Source: Parvibaculum indicum
Lineage (GTDB): Bacteria; Pseudomonadota; Alphaproteobacteria; Parvibaculales; Parvibaculaceae
Reading direction: 5' to 3'
Length of the DNA stretch: 64,000 nucleotides
NCBI RefSeq assembly: GCF_011762095.1
Contig: NZ_JAASQO010000011.1
Location: 1 to 64,000 of the forward strand
The position numbers and the translations under genes were made by a program. This document shows positions 8,789-52,419 of this stretch, in pieces; the first letter of the stretch is position 1; each line of letters starts with the position of its first letter. Under the pieces are notes generated by a model. The model made no database searches, was not told where the DNA came from, and saw only the letters and a program-made list of their open reading frames with translations.

Positions 8789-9152
8789 GGCACGCCGGGC
8801 CTTTCGATCAATATAGTATAGGGGACTATAGTATATGCCGCACCGGAGGAAAAGAGCCCCCTCGCCCTGAGAAGCGGACGCCCCTCCGCGTCTCGAAGGG
8901 CGAGCCCCGCGCCTGCCGCCCCGGATCCCGGGGCAAGCCCGGGATGACATCCGTTTTTTTGGAAAGGCCGAGGCCAAAACCAAAGTGTCATCCCGGGATT
9001 TATTCCCGGGATCCACTCGCATCGCGATGTGCCGATAAGTGGATTGGGTCCCGGCTTTCGCCGGAATGACGCCGAAGCTGCGACACCCCATTGCCAGCCC
9101 CCGCGCGATACGTCACAAAGGCGCCCGCAACCTTCCACTCACGGGTACCGTC
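8789..9152. other. Divergent promoter region with operator and palindromic repeats
   Basis: This gap between dmeR and the ABC-F gene holds the dmeR operator (8812-8836), a family B repeat (8858-8910), and three family A arms (8925-8947, 8988-9012, 9045-9070). I see no gene in it. Reading the last A unit as protein gives the spurious peptide MDWVPAFAGMT. Confidence 0.75.
8812..8836. promoter_or_regulatory. Probable DmeR operator
   Basis: Two TATAGTATA units (8812-8820 and 8827-8835) flank the G-tract GGGGAC; the centre TATAGGGGACTATA is itself a near palindrome. A G/C-tract flanked by AT-rich half-sites is the known design of RcnR/CsoR-family operators, and this one lies 24 bp upstream of dmeR. 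Assignment rests on this layout. Confidence 0.7.
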
Positions 9153-24254: not shown

Positions 24255-24415
24255 AGGTGTCATCCCGGCAACAAGTGCCGGGACGACACTGAAATTGGGG
24301 CTGTTCCATCAAGCAAAACATCGCCTGTCATCCCGGGGCTTGTCCCCGGGATCCACTCGCGTTGCAGCGCGCCGAAAAGTGGATTGGGTCCCGGCTTCCG
24401 CCGGGATGACACACG
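24255..24415. repeat. Cluster of family A palindromic repeats
   Basis: Three units occur: GTCATCCCGGCAACAAGTGC (24258), GTCATCCCGGGGCTTGTCCC (24328) and GGGTCCCGGCTTCCGCCGGG (24387). They lie between the convergent Acg-type and MscS genes. Confidence 0.8.
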
Positions 24416-43465: not shown

Positions 43466-43558
43466 AATGTCGTCCCGGCACTTGTTGCCGGGACCCACTC
43501 GCATCGGCCGCTTGCCGCAACGCCAATGGATCCCGGGAACAGGTCCCGGGATGACAGC
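43466..43558. repeat. Family A palindromic repeat pair
   Basis: GTCGTCCCGGCACTTGTTGC, CGGGACCCACTCGCATCGGC and GGATCCCGGGAACAGGTCCC, ending GGGATGACAG. Two hairpins in opposite orientation lie between the convergent Rap1a-like and SDR genes. Confidence 0.8.
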
Positions 43559-44400: not shown

Positions 44401-44631
44401 TCAAAGCGGGTCGTAGCCCGGCTCCTTGTAGAGGGTGTTCCATTTGTCCTTGATCTCCGGCTTGTAGACCTTCTCGGTCCACTCCTTCGCCGGGACTTCT
44501 TCCAGCGCGACCGACACGGAGTCCGCGCCATTGCCGAGGATTTTCCCGATATCGCGGGTGATCGCCTCGGCCAGGTCCTTCTTCTGCTTCTCGCTGCTGC
44601 CGGGCCAGAGCTTGACGACGACATGGGGCAT
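44401..44631 (-). CDS. 4-oxalocrotonate tautomerase-family enzyme
   Basis: This 76-residue protein starts [19 protein letters not shown]. After Met removal the catalytic Pro1 is exposed, as the family needs. Arg of the helix (ITRDIGKIL) and the [12 protein letters not shown] segment fit a 4-OT-like tautomerase, slightly longer than the 62-residue type. It lies 11 bp downstream of the carboxymuconolactone decarboxylase-like gene. The frame open to 44706 is an artefact of overlap. Confidence 0.88.
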
Positions 44632-44642
44632 GGCCGTCTCCT

Positions 44643-44975
44643 TCAGCTTTCGGTGTCGTTGAAAACGCGTTCCGCGATGGGCAGCGCCGTGTTCGCCGTC
44701 GGCCATCCCGCATAAAAGGCAAGATGCGTGATCGCCTCGATGATCTCGTCCTTCGTGAGCCCGTTCTCCAGCGCCTTCTTCAAATGAAAGGGCAGCTCGT
44801 TGACGCGGTAGAGCGAGATGAGCGAGGCAACCGTGACGAGGCTGCGGTCGCGGGACGAAAGGCCCGGCCGCTCCCAGACATCGCCGAACAGAACATCGTC
44901 GGTATAGTCCGCCAGCGCGGGCGCGATATGGCCGAACGCTTTTTTGGCATGATCGGGCTTTGCATGATCCGACAT
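44643..44975 (-). CDS. Carboxymuconolactone decarboxylase-family protein
   Basis: This 110-residue protein belongs to the CMD/AhpD-like helical family: [60 protein letters not shown] and [16 protein letters not shown]. It matches the decarboxylase branch (no CxxC of AhpD). With the adjacent cupin and tautomerase it suggests a ring-cleavage-like or quinone-stress pathway. It starts 5 bp after the cupin stop. Confidence 0.88.
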
Positions 44976-44980
44976 GGCGC

Positions 44981-45403
44981 TCACCCCTTCCCGTTCTTCG
45001 AGGGGCCGGGCAGATACTGCTCGTCGGTGACGGGCTCCAGCCAGTCCACGACCTTGCCGTCCAGCGCTTCCTGAACCGCGATATGCGTCATGGAGGTGGT
45101 CGGCGTTGCGCCGTGCCAGTGCTTGTGGCCCGGCGGGCACCAGATCACGTCGCCCGCGCGGATTTCCTCGATGGGCTCGCCCTCGCATTGCGTCCAGCCG
45201 ACGCCCGAGGTCACGATCAGCGTCTGGCCCAGCGGATGCGTATGCCAGTTCGTCCGCGCGCCCGGCTCGAAGGTCACGCTGGCGGCGGAAACGCGCGCCG
45301 GCGCCTCGGTCTGCACGAGCGGATCGACGCGGACGGTGCCGGTGAAAAATTCGCTCGGCCCCTGCTGCGACGGGCGCGAGCCGTTTCGATAGATAAAGCT
45401 CAT
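44981..45403 (-). CDS. Cupin-domain protein
   Basis: This 140-residue single cupin has ligands in [17 protein letters not shown] (two His, Gln/Glu position) and [17 protein letters not shown]. It resembles the small cupins annotated next to CMD genes. It is first in the operon cupin-CMD-tautomerase-SDR. ATG 45403 was chosen; the longer frame lacks family similarity. The divergent LysR gene starts 125 bp away. Confidence 0.85.
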
Positions 45404-45482
45404 TTCGGACCTCCTCTGCCTTCGATGGCGGGCGGGGACGTTCCCCACCCTTGCTACAGGAGATAGTCGCATTGACCGGCCG

Positions 45483-45526
45483 GGATTAGGCCGTATTATC
45501 CGATTACACTTATTAGTATGGCTAAT
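45483..45526. promoter_or_regulatory. LysR-type binding sites in the divergent promoter
   Basis: ATTAG-TATGG-CTAAT (45512-45526) is a perfect T-N11-A palindrome ending 2 bp before the LysR start. A second weaker site, GGAT-N11-ATCC (45483-45501), lies upstream. This arrangement suits autorepression and activation of the cupin operon. Confidence 0.65.
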
Positions 45527-45528
45527 GA

Positions 45529-46422
45529 ATGGCGCATGAAAACCTGAACGATCTGGCCGCTTTCCTCGCGGTCGCGCAGGAACGCAGCTTCACCAGGGCG
45601 GCGGCGAAGCTCGGCGTCTCGCAATCCGCGCTGAGCCAGACAATCAGCAATCTGGAGGCCCGTCTCGGCCTGCGCCTCCTCACCCGGACGACCCGCAGCG
45701 TCGCCCCGACGGATGCGGGCGAGCGTCTGGCGCGAACGCTCGCGCCGCGCCTTGAGGAAATCGACGCCGAACTCACCGAACTGACGGAGCTGCGCGAGAA
45801 ACCGGCGGGCACCATCCGCATCACGGCGGACGAACATGCCGCCGGCATGGTGCTCTGGCCGGCGCTTGAGAAATTCCTGCCGGACTATCCCGACATCAAG
45901 GTCGAGATCGTCATCGATTTCGGCCTGACCGATATCGTGGCCGAACGCTATGACGCCGGCGTGCGCAATGTCGAAACCGTGGCGAAGGACATGATCGCGG
46001 TCCCCATCGGCCCGCCCATGCGCATGGCCGTTGTGGGCAGTCCGGACTATTTCAGCGGACGCACCCGGCCAAAGGTGCCGCAGGACCTGACCTCGCATCG
46101 CTGCATCAATCTGCGCCTGCCCACCCATGGCGGCCTCTATGCCTGGGAGTTCGACAAGGACGGTCGCGAATTGCGCGTGCGCGTCGACGGCCAGCTCATT
46201 TTCAACAGCGTTTCCATGATGGTGAAGGCCGCGCTCGGCGGCGCGGGGCTTGCCTATGTGCCGGAAGCGGAAGTGACCGGGCACCTGAAGAAAAAGCGCC
46301 TCATCCGCGTGCTGGAGGACTGGTGCGAGCCTTTCTCCGGCTACCACCTTTATTATCCCAGCCGCCGCCAGCACGCCCCCGCCTTCGCCCTTCTCGTCGA
46401 GGCGCTGCGCTACCGCAAATAG
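45529..46422 (+). CDS. LysR-family transcriptional regulator
   Basis: This 297-residue regulator has an N-terminal HTH ([40 protein letters not shown]) and a periplasmic-binding-protein-like effector domain from about residue 90. It is divergent from the cupin-CMD-tautomerase-SDR operon and probably activates it in response to a pathway compound or oxidative/electrophile stress; its nearest functional class cannot be named. T-N11-A sites lie just upstream. Confidence 0.93.
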
Positions 46423-47299: not shown

Positions 47300-47512
47300 C
47301 TGTCATCCCGGCGAAAGCCGGGACCCACTCGCATCAACCGCTTGCCGCAGCGCCAATGGATCCCGGGAACAAGTCCCGGGACGACAGTTTTGTCTGTGGG
47401 TAGAGAAGAAATCAAAAACTCGGTGTCGTCCCGGCACTCGTTGCCGGGACCCACTCTCGGTAGCTCCTTGTCGAAGCCCCAATGGGTCCCGGCTTTCGCC
47501 GGGATGACATTG
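47300..47512. repeat. Cluster of family A palindromic repeats
   Basis: Four units alternate in orientation: GTCATCCCGGCGAAAGCCGG (47302), GGATCCCGGGAACAAGTCCC (47359), GTCGTCCCGGCACTCGTTGC (47425) and GGGTCCCGGCTTTCGCCGGG (47485). They fill the gap between the convergent amidase and DUF2332 genes. Confidence 0.85.
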
Positions 47513-47516
47513 GGAG

Positions 47517-48560
47517 TTAAGTCCACCGCGTCCAGCGCCCATGGAAATCCGTGCGGGCGAGCTCCAAATCCTCCCCCGAGGGCCACAACCGCAATCGCAA
47601 CGACGCCGAACTCGGATCGGTTTCATCCGCCTCCATGCTCAGCCAGGCGAGCGGTGCATCTTCGCTCGCTTCAAGGGCGGCTTCTTTCATCACCGCTTCA
47701 ATCCGCGCCTGCGTTTCCGCCGGCAAATATTGCCAGACGATGGTGTGAGAGAGCACGCGCGTATGCCCCGCCTTGCTCGGCTTTGCGAAATGCCGCGCGA
47801 CCCATTCCACCGCATCGGCCTTTTCCACCTGCGTGCCGCTCCGCGCGGCGGCATCGACCGCCGCCTCAATCCGGGCGAGCCGCGCCGTCTGGTCCGGCCA
47901 GATATAGGAAAGCAGCCTTTCGCGTGCGGCCCCGTCTGACATGTCGAGCGGGTTCAGGTCGCAGCCCCGACGCGAGGCGACGGCAAGCGGTGCGTCGAGC
48001 GGCGGCGTCTCGCCTTCCCATGACGACATGATTTTGACCGGCGATGTGGGATCGCCCCATTCGCGCCCGCCGAGATCGTAATGATAGCGGTCGAAATTGA
48101 GGTTGAGCCCGGCGCTCGACCCAATCTCATGAAGGGCGAGCGGCAGGCCCGTCCGCGCCGCGATGTGGAGGCACCCGCCAAGGATCGCATTCGACCGCGA
48201 GACCTCGTTCGTCTGCGGCGCGCTGTCGAGAAACGCCGTCAGGAACGCGTCTTCCCGTTCCATCGCCGCGGCAAGCGCCTGCCACAACTCGTCATCCGTC
48301 ACCTCGTTCGGCGGATAGGCCGGCGCGAGCGATGCCCTGTCCTGCCGCTTCAGCGCATGAAACGCACCCGCCGCGCGGATCGGCAGCGCATCGCTTTGCG
48401 GATCGCCCTCCCACGCAAGGATGCGATTACCGAAATTCGTGCGCGCGTCGAGCCGCTCGCCCAGCAACCGGCACAGCCGCGCATTGAGGGGCGAACCCAG
48501 ATAGTCGCAGGCGATGGATTGCCGCTCGAAAGCGGCGCGAATGTCGTTGCTGTTCGTCAC
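47517..48560 (-). CDS. DUF2332 protein
   Basis: This 347-residue soluble protein matches DUF2332 by the N-terminal FERQSIACDYLGSPLNARLC, the central NEVSRSNAILGGCLHIAART, LALHEIGSSAGLNLNFDRYH, and C-terminal GRWTRWT. EIGSSAGLNL resembles a methyltransferase-like glycine motif, so a SAM-dependent role is possible, but this is a guess. It starts at GTG 48560. Function unknown. Confidence 0.82.
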   Translation of the reverse strand: MTNSNDIRAAFERQSIACDYLGSPLNARLCRLLGERLDARTNFGNRILAWEGDPQSDALPIRAAGAFHALKRQDRASLAPAYPPNEVTDDELWQALAAAMEREDAFLTAFLDSAPQTNEVSRSNAILGGCLHIAARTGLPLALHEIGSSAGLNLNFDRYHYDLGGREWGDPTSPVKIMSSWEGETPPLDAPLAVASRRGCDLNPLDMSDGAARERLLSYIWPDQTARLARIEAAVDAAARSGTQVEKADAVEWVARHFAKPSKAGHTRVLSHTIVWQYLPAETQARIEAVMKEAALEASEDAPLAWLSMEADETDPSSASLRLRLWPSGEDLELARTDFHGRWTRWT

Positions 48561-48577: not shown

Positions 48578-48666
48578 ATGTCGTCCCGGCACTTGTTGCC
48601 GGGACCCACTCACTTTTCCATTTGCCGAAGAGCCAATGGATCCCGGGAACAAGTCCCGGGATGACA
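48578..48666. repeat. Family A palindromic repeat pair
   Basis: GTCGTCCCGGCACTTGTTGC, CGGGACCCACTCACTTTTCC and GGATCCCGGGAACAAGTCCC form two opposed hairpins between the DUF2332 start and the citrate synthase stop. Confidence 0.8.
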
Positions 48667-48690: not shown

Positions 48691-49839
48691 CTACGCCGCT
48701 TCCGTCTCGTCGTCCGGCCACGGGCCGACATAGCGCGACTGCGGACGGATGAGGCGTCCCACCCTTTCCTGTTCGATCACATGCGCCGTCCAGCCTGCGA
48801 TCCGCGACATGCCGAAGATCGCCGTGAAGGCCGCGCGCGGAATGCCCAGCGCCTCGAGCAATATGGCGGTGTAGTATTCCATATTCGTGTCGAGCGGGCG
48901 GTCGGGCTTGGCGCGCTTCAGGGCGGCCAGCGCTTCCTTTTCCACTTCTCGGGCAAAGACGATGCGCTCATTGCCGTCGGTGATATAGGTCAGCGCCGTG
49001 TTGAAAACATCCGCACGCGGATCGCGCACGCGGTAGACGCGATGGCCGAAGCCCATCAGCCGTCCGCCCTCGCCGATTTCCCTTTCGAGCCAGGGGCGGA
49101 TGTTCTCCTGCGTGCCGATCGCATCCAGCATGTCGAGCACCGGCCCCGGCGCGCCGCCATGGAGCGGGCCCTTCAGTGCGCAGAGCCCGGCGACCACGGC
49201 GGAGATCATGCCCGCCCTTGTCGAGGCCGTCACGCGGGCGGCGAAGGTCGAGGCGTTCATGCCGTGGTCGGCCACCGTGACGAGATAGGCGTTGAGCGCC
49301 TTCACCTCGCCCTCGCCCGGCGCCCTTCCATTCAGCATACGGAGGAAATCCGCCGCCTGCCCCGCCTTCGGGTCCGGCGCGATGTTCTCCTTGCCTTCCC
49401 CGGCCCGGCAGAGCGCGGCCACGAAAACGGGCGCGGCGCCCAGCGCGCGGATATGGGCGGGGATATCTCCCTCGTCCGGCAGCAGGGCGAGCCCCGCGCG
49501 CAGGCCCTCGATCACGTTGAGCCCTCGCGCAACGCCGACGAGCCCCGGCACCAGCCGATAGGCGTCTTCGCGCGACCGGCCGAGCAGGTCACGCACCTCC
49601 TCCGCTTCCGGCGCGGGATCGAGCCCCGCCGCGGCCCAGAGTTCGGCCGCCGCCGCCTCGAAGTCATGCGTCTCGGCCAGCGCCTCCACCTTGTGCCCGG
49701 CGACGATCAGCCGGCCGGCCTGACCGTCCACATCGCTCAGTGCCGTCTCGGCGGCGACCACCTCGTCGAGGCCGCTCGCGCTGGCATCCTTCAAGGCATG
49801 GTCCCAATCTCGCCCCGCCTTCATCTCTATCTTGCTCAT
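48691..49839 (-). CDS. Citrate synthase-family enzyme (no HTH)
   Basis: This 382-residue enzyme condenses acetyl-CoA or propionyl-CoA with oxaloacetate. Catalytic-region motifs are VADHGMNASTF (His), LKGPLHGGAPG (His) and GFGHRVYRVRDPRA (substrate-binding His/Arg). The length resembles short type I/2-methylcitrate synthases. It is divergent from a second citrate-synthase-family gene that has an N-terminal HTH. No prp or other TCA genes are adjacent, so the physiological substrate is unclear. Confidence 0.9.
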   Translation of the reverse strand: MSKIEMKAGRDWDHALKDASASGLDEVVAAETALSDVDGQAGRLIVAGHKVEALAETHDFEAAAAELWAAAGLDPAPEAEEVRDLLGRSREDAYRLVPGLVGVARGLNVIEGLRAGLALLPDEGDIPAHIRALGAAPVFVAALCRAGEGKENIAPDPKAGQAADFLRMLNGRAPGEGEVKALNAYLVTVADHGMNASTFAARVTASTRAGMISAVVAGLCALKGPLHGGAPGPVLDMLDAIGTQENIRPWLEREIGEGGRLMGFGHRVYRVRDPRADVFNTALTYITDGNERIVFAREVEKEALAALKRAKPDRPLDTNMEYYTAILLEALGIPRAAFTAIFGMSRIAGWTAHVIEQERVGRLIRPQSRYVGPWPDDETEAA

Positions 49840-49884
49840 GGCATCACCTTTCTCAGCGAATTCATGAGCGGAAACTGGCGATGG

Positions 49885-49919
49885 CTTGATTATTGGTCAA
49901 TCTTGATTAAGCTAATCAA
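49885..49919. promoter_or_regulatory. Palindrome and repeat in the divergent citrate synthase promoter
   Basis: TTGATTA-AGC-TAATCAA (49903-49919) is a perfect 7-bp inverted repeat; CTTGATTA occurs at 49885-49892 and again at 49902-49909, 17 bp apart. It lies in the 114-bp AT-rich gap between the two citrate synthase genes. The HTH-bearing enzyme is the obvious candidate to bind it (inference). Confidence 0.55.
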
Positions 49920-49953
49920 TATTAAAATACTTTTGCGGCGCAGCATTTCGGAA

Positions 49954-51219
49954 ATGGCGGACAAATCGAAAAAAGGGCCGGGAACTCCCGAAAACCTCTA
50001 CCTCTCCGCCCGCGAGGCGGCGGCGGAGTTGGGGGTGAGCCTTGCCACGCTTTACGCCTATGTGAGCCGCGATCTCATCCGCTCCGAGCCCGTCCCGGAC
50101 AGCCGCGCCAAGCGCTACCGGGCCGAGGATATCCGCAAACTCAGGGCCCGCCGCGGCGGTTCGCCGGGCGAAACGGCCCTGCCGCCCGGCGCCAAAGCCG
50201 GTTTCGGCCTCGGCGGCCAGCCGGTGCTGGAGAGCGCAATCACCCTCATCAGCGACGGAAAGCTCTATTATCGCGGCGCTGACGCTACGTCATTGGCTGA
50301 AAATGCCAGCCTCGAACAGGTCGCGACGCTGCTCTGGGGGCTCAGCGACATCCAGCCCTTCACCCGGGACGAACTGCCGCCCTGGACGCCGAAACTCGAG
50401 GCGCTGGCCGCGGAACTCAGGACCATGCCCCGGATCGAGCGCTGTCTGGCGCTGCTCCCCGTCGCCGCGCTGGAAGACGCCGCCGTCTACAACATGACCG
50501 AGCGCGGCCTTGCCGCCACCGGCGCGCGCCTCCTCCGGCTGGTGGCCGCCATCGTCGCGGGCGAGACGCCGGGTCCAGCGCCCGTCCATGAAATGCTAAG
50601 CCGGGCAATGACTTATGGCGACAGGCCGGGGACGGAACTGATCCGCGCCGCGCTCGTTCTTTCCGCCGATCACGAGCTCAACGCCTCCGCCTTCACCGTG
50701 CGCTGCGTCGCCGGAACGGGCTCCAATCTCTACGCCGCCATGCAGGCGGGCATCTGCGCCGCGCAGGGGCCGAAGCATGGCGGCCTCACCACCCGGGTCG
50801 AGAGTTTCCTTTTCGATCTGGCCAACCGGCAGGACATCGAGGACGCGGTCATCCAGCGCCTGCGCGAAAACGATCCCCCGCCCGGCTTCGGCCACTGGCT
50901 CTATCCCGACGGCGATCCGCGCGCGAAATGCCTGCTCGACATGCTGGCGCGCTCGCATGGGGACGATGCGGTTTTCCAGCGCGTGGAGCGCGTCCGCCGC
51001 GTGATGGCGGAAGCCGGCGGGCTGCATCCCAATATCGATTTTGCGATTGCCGCCACGGGTGGCGTTCTGCACCTGCCGCGCGGCGCGGCGCTCACGCTTT
51101 TCGTGCTGGGCCGCATGGCGGGCTGGATCGGCCACGCCATGGAGCAGTACCGCTCCGGCCAGATGATCCGCCCCCGCGCCCGCTATGTCGGCGAAACGCC
51201 CCGCACCGGCCTCCAGTGA
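49954..51219 (+). CDS. Citrate synthase-family protein with N-terminal MerR-type HTH
   Basis: This 421-residue protein begins with a MerR/excisionase-like HTH (YLSAREAAAELGVSLATLYA, YVSRDLIRSEPV, about residues 15-55). A citrate synthase fold follows, keeping ADHELNASAF, GPKHGGLTTR, GFGHWLYPDGDPRAK and the late acid in PNIDFAIAATGG, so catalytic residues look intact. It may be a trigger enzyme or a regulator sensing acyl-CoA/oxaloacetate. It is divergent from a second citrate synthase 114 bp away. ATG 49954 was chosen. Confidence 0.9.
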   Translation: MADKSKKGPGTPENLYLSAREAAAELGVSLATLYAYVSRDLIRSEPVPDSRAKRYRAEDIRKLRARRGGSPGETALPPGAKAGFGLGGQPVLESAITLISDGKLYYRGADATSLAENASLEQVATLLWGLSDIQPFTRDELPPWTPKLEALAAELRTMPRIERCLALLPVAALEDAAVYNMTERGLAATGARLLRLVAAIVAGETPGPAPVHEMLSRAMTYGDRPGTELIRAALVLSADHELNASAFTVRCVAGTGSNLYAAMQAGICAAQGPKHGGLTTRVESFLFDLANRQDIEDAVIQRLRENDPPPGFGHWLYPDGDPRAKCLLDMLARSHGDDAVFQRVERVRRVMAEAGGLHPNIDFAIAATGGVLHLPRGAALTLFVLGRMAGWIGHAMEQYRSGQMIRPRARYVGETPRTGLQ

Positions 51220-51225
51220 GACGCC

Positions 51226-52419
51226 TCAGGCGACGTCCGTCATTCGGCTTTCGGCGGGGATCGACGGCACGAGACGCGAAGGCGGCAGGCAAATGCAGAC
51301 CGTCGTCCCCACGCCGATCTTGCTTTCAAGGCACAAAGTGCCGTCATGCGCCTCCGCCATGGCCTTGGCGAGCGGCAGGCCGAGCCCCGTTCCCGCTCTC
51401 GTCCGTGTAAAGGAGTTTTCCACCTGCTCGAAAGGCTCGAGCACCTTTTCCAGCTTGTCGGCGGGTATGCCGATTCCCGTATCGTGCACGGCAATCCGCA
51501 TGCCTCCATCTGCGCTCGTTTCCGCGACGACCGAAATATCCCCCTGCGGCGGCGTGAATTTGACCGCGTTCGAGACCAGATTGACGAGAATGCGCCGGAT
51601 CTGCTGCTCGTCCGCAAAAAGCGTCGGCAGGTCCGCCTCGATCTGGGCGGAAAGCGTCAACCCGTTTTCGGAGATCGAGGGGGTCATCATGCGAACCACT
51701 TCATCCACGATCTCCGGGATGACGATCTCGGTTTCGTTCAGTTCCGACCGCCCCGCCTCGATCTTCGCCATGTCGAGGAGTTCGTTGATCATGCCGAGCA
51801 GATGAACGCCGGAAGTGTGGATATCCGCGACATATTCCTTGTAGCGCGGGGGCTGCATCTCGCCGTAAAGCTCCATGCGAATCAGGTCGGCAAAGCCGAT
51901 GATCGCATTGAGCGGCGTGCGCAGTTCATGGCTCATGGTCGCCAGGAATTTGGTTTTGCTCTGATTGGCGGCTTCCGCACGCTGCCGCTGGCGCTCCAGG
52001 TCCTCGGCGCGGCGCTCGGTCAGCCCGGCCATCACGCGCATCAGCGTCGCCGCCGCGCCGAGACCGAAATAGGCGCCATTTTCCGTCACGATATAGCCCT
52101 GCAGCGGCGATGAAAGCCCAGAGCCGAAAAGCCGCGCATTGACCCGCTCGCAGCTCTCGGAGGCATCGACGACAAGGGGATAGCGGTTCATCAGCGATGA
52201 AATCGGCCGCCGCCCGTAAATCTCCCGGCCGTAAAGGCGGACATAGACCAGCAGGAAATCCTGGCGGCTGACCATCCCGACCGGGCGCCCGTCGTTCACC
52301 ACCGGCACGTTCAGCAGAGATCCGCTCGCCATGAACCGATCGAACGCCTCCTGGCATGTCGTCCGGGACGAAAACGGCGTCACCCTCTCGGCAAGATCCC
52401 GCGCTATCGGAATTTGCAT
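51226..52419 (-). CDS. Soluble sensor histidine kinase with CBS-like N-terminus
   Basis: This 397-residue protein has no membrane helix. Residues 1-130 look like a tandem CBS/CBS-like region (LLNVPVVNDGRPVGMVSRQD, then a second half ending ENGAYFGLGAAATLM). A short coiled coil leads to HisKA with H164 in MSHELRTPLNAIIGF, then HATPase motifs N284, DTGIGIP (313) and GTGLGLPLAKA (343). No response regulator is adjacent, so it is an orphan kinase. CBS pairs often bind adenine nucleotides. Confidence 0.88.
   Translation of the reverse strand: MQIPIARDLAERVTPFSSRTTCQEAFDRFMASGSLLNVPVVNDGRPVGMVSRQDFLLVYVRLYGREIYGRRPISSLMNRYPLVVDASESCERVNARLFGSGLSSPLQGYIVTENGAYFGLGAAATLMRVMAGLTERRAEDLERQRQRAEAANQSKTKFLATMSHELRTPLNAIIGFADLIRMELYGEMQPPRYKEYVADIHTSGVHLLGMINELLDMAKIEAGRSELNETEIVIPEIVDEVVRMMTPSISENGLTLSAQIEADLPTLFADEQQIRRILVNLVSNAVKFTPPQGDISVVAETSADGGMRIAVHDTGIGIPADKLEKVLEPFEQVENSFTRTRAGTGLGLPLAKAMAEAHDGTLCLESKIGVGTTVCICLPPSRLVPSIPAESRMTDVA

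Follow-up and report, generated by a model that had tools for sequence, protein, structure and literature searches.

In the alphaproteobacterium Parvibaculum indicum, a gene whose product joins a winged helix-turn-helix (wHTH) domain to a citrate synthase domain (here termed HTH-CS) lies divergent from the gene of a second citrate synthase family protein (CS2). Comparison of its homologues, together with predicted structure, makes it likely that HTH-CS is a one-component transcription factor, in which a citrate synthase domain would serve as the sensor and which would control both its own gene and the divergent one. It thus appears to be a form of enzyme-derived one-component regulator that has gone unreported. 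The TCA cycle is entered through citrate synthase; among open-licence PMC papers we found no functional description of a transcription factor with a citrate synthase domain, although such absence is no proof. Although widespread, HTH-CS carries annotations such as citrate synthase or 'citrate synthase family protein', so that a probable regulator is counted among the citrate synthases in genomes and flux models. The family appears to include CitC of the model organism Caulobacter, whose genes have already been deleted, which makes the proposal immediately testable. Furthermore, the putative operator predicts targets, offers a first functional handle on the DUF2332 family, and may make HTH-CS a source of biosensors for TCA precursors.

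The divergent gene pair in Parvibaculum

The window (the whole stretch of 64,000 nucleotides that was analysed) carries the HTH-CS gene at positions 49954-51219 on the forward strand (421 aa), and the gene of CS2, a CitA-like citrate synthase of 382 aa, at 48691-49839 on the reverse strand. Between them is an intergenic region of 114 bp (49840-49953), presumed to be the home of both promoters. A divergent citrate synthase-family pair 114 bp apart had been claimed in a sequence-only reading of this DNA, and the Pfam Citrate_synt profile confirms it, with scores of 214.8 bits for HTH-CS and 309.4 bits for CS2. Since the divergent pair is also retained in every one of the 18 relatives retrieved at first, which range from Parvibaculum to Actinoplanes (34% identity), the pairing exceeds chance by far. 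The Parvibaculum genome (4.02 Mb) encodes a third citrate synthase, of the ordinary type, on another contig.

Other features were seen nearby. A histidine kinase-like ORF (51226-52419, reverse strand), with an apparent CBS-type N-terminus as judged by eye from the ORF list, is convergent with HTH-CS and ends 6 bp from its stop codon. Small reverse-strand genes at 44401-46422, resembling by eye those of tautomerase, carboxymuconolactone decarboxylase-like and cupin proteins, are divergent from the forward-strand gene of a LysR-type regulator. In addition, a dispersed REP-like inverted repeat, CCGGGAACAAGTCCCGGGATGAC, is present in the window in 5 copies (48643-48665, 47363-47385, 43533-43555, 24327-24349 and 8987-9009), where none is expected, and one copy is located between CS2 and the DUF2332 gene.

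The citrate synthase domains and their active sites

The citrate synthase domain of HTH-CS (PF00285; residues 85-408, positions 50206-51177 on the forward strand) matches the full profile, 1-357 of 357, at 214.8 bits against a cut-off of 27, and the body in the predicted structure matches citrate and methylcitrate synthases. On the other hand, no NCBIfam citrate synthase equivalog comes near its cut-off, the best being TIGR01800 with 174 against 421. The catalytic histidines and acidic residue that the sequence-only reading had ascribed to the HTH protein are indeed present, as H275, H314 and D362, the counterparts of pig H274, H320 and D375, together with the oxaloacetate-binding arginines R323, R387 and R406. 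This holds throughout the family: H240, R250, H275, R323, D362, R387 and R406 are kept in 61 or 62 of 62 dereplicated HTH-CS proteins and H314 in 58, and the conservation extends to members without CS2. The histidine equivalent to pig H320 has been lost from L025, L077 and L079, which still bear an operator of the kind described below. Such near-invariance of catalytic residues could reflect catalysis instead of sensing.

CS2 reaches 398.3 against a cut-off of 332 with the CitA-like NCBIfam model NF009005, and is 37% identical to B. subtilis CitA (2c6x). At the position of pig D375, 34 of 35 CS2 proteins have Glu (Glu321 in Parvibaculum), as does B. subtilis CitA, whereas 61 of 62 HTH-CS proteins have Asp. 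It is therefore CS2, not the HTH protein, that departs from the textbook active site, a point that the sequence-only reading had missed. The probable CS2 homologue of Caulobacter, CitB, is functional by complementation (PMC7083601), and CS2 would be the working auxiliary citrate synthase.

The predicted DNA-binding domain

The N-terminal head of HTH-CS (residues 16-67, positions 49999-50154, forward strand) is a predicted wHTH domain, although the Pfam gathering scores of the MerR and HTH_17 families are not reached: HTH_17 scores 24.1 bits, slightly below the cut-off of 27, and MerR_1 18.2 against 21.6. In the predicted structure, helices at residues 19-26, 30-38 and 57-68 and a two-stranded wing come first, then a disordered linker (~68-92), and last a citrate synthase body made up of helices only. 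An AlphaFold2 model of the domain, with a pLDDT of 82, has the same helix-turn-helix, two-stranded wing and third helix. When the HTH model alone was compared with known structures, the best matches were MerR-type DNA-binding domains, some of them in complex with DNA (SoxR, RacA-DNA, BldC-DNA and NmlR-DNA), with modest E values (3e-3 to 1e-2) and probabilities near 1. The recognition-helix residues Y34, Y36, S38 and R39 are almost invariant across the family. At locus L040 the HTH seemed to have been lost naturally, but this was ruled out, as the contig stops there.

A conserved operator upstream of HTH-CS

When the divergent intergenic regions were aligned, one conserved element was noticed by eye between drifting flanks. 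In Parvibaculum it is GTCAATCTTGATTAAGCTAATCAAT at 49896-49920 (forward strand), which has the form RTCAAYnTTGAY-N7-RTCAAY and ends 33 nt ahead of the HTH-CS start codon. We sought the pattern RTCAAYnTTGAY-N3..8-RTCAAY within 260 nt upstream of HTH-CS in 74 dereplicated loci (Alpha- and Betaproteobacteria, Deinococcus, Actinomycetes). It occurs with at most one mismatch in 56 of them (50 perfect), but in only 1 of 1480 control windows drawn from these loci and in 0 of 1480 shuffles. As expected of an autogenous one-component regulator, a conserved operator in the gene's own promoter region tracks the protein. Within the 19 spacer-7 loci used for the logo, TCAAT-n-TTGAT...ATCAA forms an invariant core. 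A spacer fixed at 7 nt was rejected: this length prevails in most Alpha- and Betaproteobacteria, and 3-6 nt in most Actinomycetes and Deinococcus.

At the genome scale, 18 of 30 HTH-CS-positive but only 11 of 248 HTH-CS-negative genomes contain an exact site (278 alphaproteobacterial genomes; odds ratio 32, p=2e-13), and in the 18 positive genomes it always adjoins HTH-CS; the reversed pattern, used as a control, gave none. The genomes are related, so that this p value overstates their independence, and recurrence across phyla is the stronger argument. Sites in three HTH-CS-negative genomes (G187-C97, G193 and G268), which have no citrate synthase family gene nearby, were taken as chance. The site at 49896-49920 is the only exact one in the Parvibaculum genome, and a larger regulon there was rejected, as matches with 3 mismatches look like chance.

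An actinomycete clade (L072-L075, L078, L080 and L085) carries the variant AGATATATTGATTTnnRTCAAT, in which the right half is kept and the left half changed. There is no recognisable operator, although the HTH is intact, in CobW-linked Actinomycetes (L068/L069) and Burkholderia-type loci (L049/L051). In L068 and L069, HTH-CS is divergent from the gene of a CobW-type GTPase, and the HTH of L069 looks normal. These operator-less and half-operator loci, together with the decayed Caulobacteraceae proteins described below, count against the proposed regulator, and so does the variation of the spacer from 3 to 8 nt, which leaves the binding geometry unaccounted for.

The operator persists with different partner genes

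CS2 is the neighbour of HTH-CS in 46 of the 69 loci examined. The operator is also retained where the divergent gene encodes a CoA-transferase III (CoA_transf_3; L050, L145 and L146), an HMGL-like, homocitrate-synthase-type protein (L048 and the actinomycete loci L083/L086, which are the same loci as L161/L162), a 2-hydroxyacid dehydrogenase (2-Hacid_dh; L052 and L054), an MFS transporter (L055) or DUF2332 (L056, L046/L143, L147 and L163). In L161, L162 and L048, the place of CS2 is thus taken by a non-homologous acyl-CoA condensing enzyme (homocitrate/Re-citrate-synthase-type). As the operator tracks HTH-CS whatever the partner gene, HTH-CS itself is very probably the protein that binds it. 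Most of the partners act on CoA thioesters or on 2-oxo or 2-hydroxy acids, which would fit a ligand of the citrate synthase type.

The DUF2332 gene of the window (PF10094, 366 bits; 47517-48560, reverse strand) lies downstream of CS2 in the same orientation, and probably belongs to the regulon as well. DUF2332 is linked to the operator in three ways: six relatives share this gene order, DUF2332 is directly divergent from HTH-CS in Roseomonas and others, and in a Caulobacteraceae genome (G582) the second exact operator precedes an unlinked DUF2332 gene by 31 nt. Among open-licence PMC papers we found none mentioning DUF2332.

Distribution and joint loss in Caulobacteraceae

We found HTH-CS in 32 of the 289 alphaproteobacterial genomes sampled, in 116 of 149 Caulobacteraceae and in 36 of 197 Actinomycetes; plasmids of Agrobacterium, Burkholderiaceae, Comamonas and Deinococcus carry it as well. 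A tree of 132 sequences unites all 82 HTH-CS proteins in a clade with support 0.995, which agrees with a single origin of the fusion.

Among 19 Caulobacteraceae genomes compared, all 13 with intact HTH-CS catalytic residues have a divergent CS2 and an exact operator. The remaining six (genera g65 and g237) have H275, H314 and D362 replaced and lack CS2 and any exact operator genome-wide; instead of CS2 they have only a gltA-type gene (31-33%). Even so, their decayed HTH-CS proteins keep the HTH residues Y34, Y36, S38 and R39. CS2, the operator and the active site were lost together, though this may represent only one or two evolutionary events. With an intact HTH and a decayed active site, these proteins (L203-L207 and L213) are possible pure regulators with another target. 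In eight genomes of genus g245 the HTH-bearing protein pairs with CS2, and one of them encodes an RsaA S-layer N-terminus with 82% identity.

The Caulobacter homologues

It has been reported that Caulobacter crescentus has two consecutively numbered citrate synthase paralogs, citB (CCNA_03757) and citC (CCNA_03758), whose products are 37% and 32% identical, respectively, to B. subtilis CitA, and that CitB but not CitC complements an E. coli gltA deletion (PMC7083601). In sister Caulobacter genomes HTH-CS and CS2 are likewise divergent, with a perfect operator, and are 32% and 36% identical, respectively, to B. subtilis CitA. Because these values, from sister genomes, come close to the reported ones, CitB is most likely CS2 and CitC most likely HTH-CS. 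The sequence-only reading knew of no functional description of such a pair, and this stands insofar as we found, among open-licence PMC papers, no published role as a regulator; nevertheless, the Caulobacter genes have already been deleted and complementation-tested, in a paper that mentions neither an HTH nor an operator nor a regulatory role (PMC7083601). Control of Caulobacter citB by IscR was considered and rejected, as the citB promoter is a negative control in the paper concerned.

Discussion

We propose that the joining of a MerR-type wHTH to a citrate synthase fold made a one-component transcription factor. As a dimer of the citrate synthase type, the protein would contact the operator in the divergent intergenic region with its two wHTH heads, and would regulate its own gene and a divergent metabolic gene, here CS2 and probably also the downstream DUF2332 gene. 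The ligand probably uses the citrate synthase active site of HTH-CS, where the candidates are oxaloacetate, an acyl-CoA and a citrate-type product; sensing of one of the first two, as suggested in the sequence-only reading, is plausible. A bound metabolite would alter the open or closed state of the body and thereby the affinity for DNA, to which the gene pair would respond. Repression of both genes, relieved by the ligand, is slightly favoured as the default because the site is very close to both start codons, the alternative being activation of the MerR type.

The sequence-only reading took the HTH protein to be both enzyme and regulator, with control over the partner gene. The regulatory half is borne out by an operator that recurs across phyla in the intergenic DNA independently of the partner gene, and its position there supports control of that gene. 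The other half is not supported as far as plain citrate synthase activity is concerned, given that the H320-equivalent is lost in a few operator-bearing members and that the probable homologue CitC does not complement gltA (PMC7083601). HTH-CS could still be a bifunctional trigger enzyme, for which PutA and BirA are precedents: an active (methyl)citrate synthase or other acyl-CoA/oxoacid synthase that is also a repressor, so that its own flux sets transcription. The near-invariant active site, also in members without CS2, and the catalytic Asp where CS2 has Glu speak for this reading, while the low equivalog scores and the operator-bearing members without the histidine make it rather doubtful; the failure of CitC to replace gltA in E. 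coli argues in the same direction, although other acyl-CoA substrates would remain compatible with it. Equally tentative is the suggestion that HTH-CS is a catalytically competent flux sensor, which would join an acyl-CoA to oxaloacetate or some other 2-oxo acid in its own active site, the bound intermediate or product setting its affinity for DNA, and which would have been re-used across phyla for several acyl-CoA/oxoacid enzymes, i.e. CitA-type citrate synthases, homocitrate-synthase-like lyases, CoA transferases, 2-hydroxyacid dehydrogenases and DUF2332.

Citrate synthases are dimers or hexamers, and the two genes are adjacent in two thirds of the loci, so HTH-CS might be the regulatory subunit of a hetero-oligomer with CS2, its DNA binding being modulated by whether CS2 is attached. 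This is improbable, for the operator is kept at many HTH-CS loci without an adjoining CS2, and CitB functions alone in E. coli (PMC7083601). That the element serves as a promoter or binds a different regulator, the HTH having no target there, finds some support in its TTGAC/TTGAT, which resembles -35 boxes, and in the occupancy of the Streptomyces coelicolor sco5831/sco5832 intergenic region by MtrA (PMC12323332); yet the element tracks HTH-CS across phyla and unrelated partners and is rare in HTH-CS-negative genomes, and the MtrA consensus (GTAACC repeats) is unlike it, which leaves this explanation decidedly improbable. Finally, it is very hard to maintain that HTH-CS is, as its annotation says, an ordinary redundant citrate synthase with a decorative or oligomerisation HTH, when its recognition-helix residues are nearly invariant and outlast the active site in the decayed clade, when CitC fails in complementation (PMC7083601), and when the operator has to be explained as well. 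The reading of HTH-CS as a transcription factor with a citrate synthase sensor is the preferred one.

Relation to known systems

The layout of the Parvibaculum locus resembles that of B. subtilis, in which a minor CitA-type citrate synthase has a dedicated divergent regulator, the LysR-type CitR; unlike HTH-CS, CitR is not itself a citrate synthase homologue. In Caulobacter, CitB and CitC were both treated by the authors as citrate synthase paralogs (PMC7083601), from which our regulatory reading differs. The S. coelicolor genes sco5831 (citA3) and sco5832 (citA4) are likewise adjacent citrate synthase genes that share a controlled intergenic region, and were studied only as targets of MtrA (PMC12323332); this likeness is drawn from the paper. 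HTH-CS shares the predicted wHTH fold with the MerR family (SoxR, BmrR) and with BldC and RacA. It differs from the MerR family in having a citrate synthase as the effector domain, in HTH_17 and MerR_1 scores below the cut-offs, and in an operator that is an array of three half-sites instead of a simple dyad. BirA, PutA and other enzyme-derived transcription factors also combine a DNA-binding domain with an enzyme domain and control their own pathways; HTH-CS differs from BirA and PutA in both its enzyme fold and its HTH, and any catalysis by it is probably not plain citrate synthesis.
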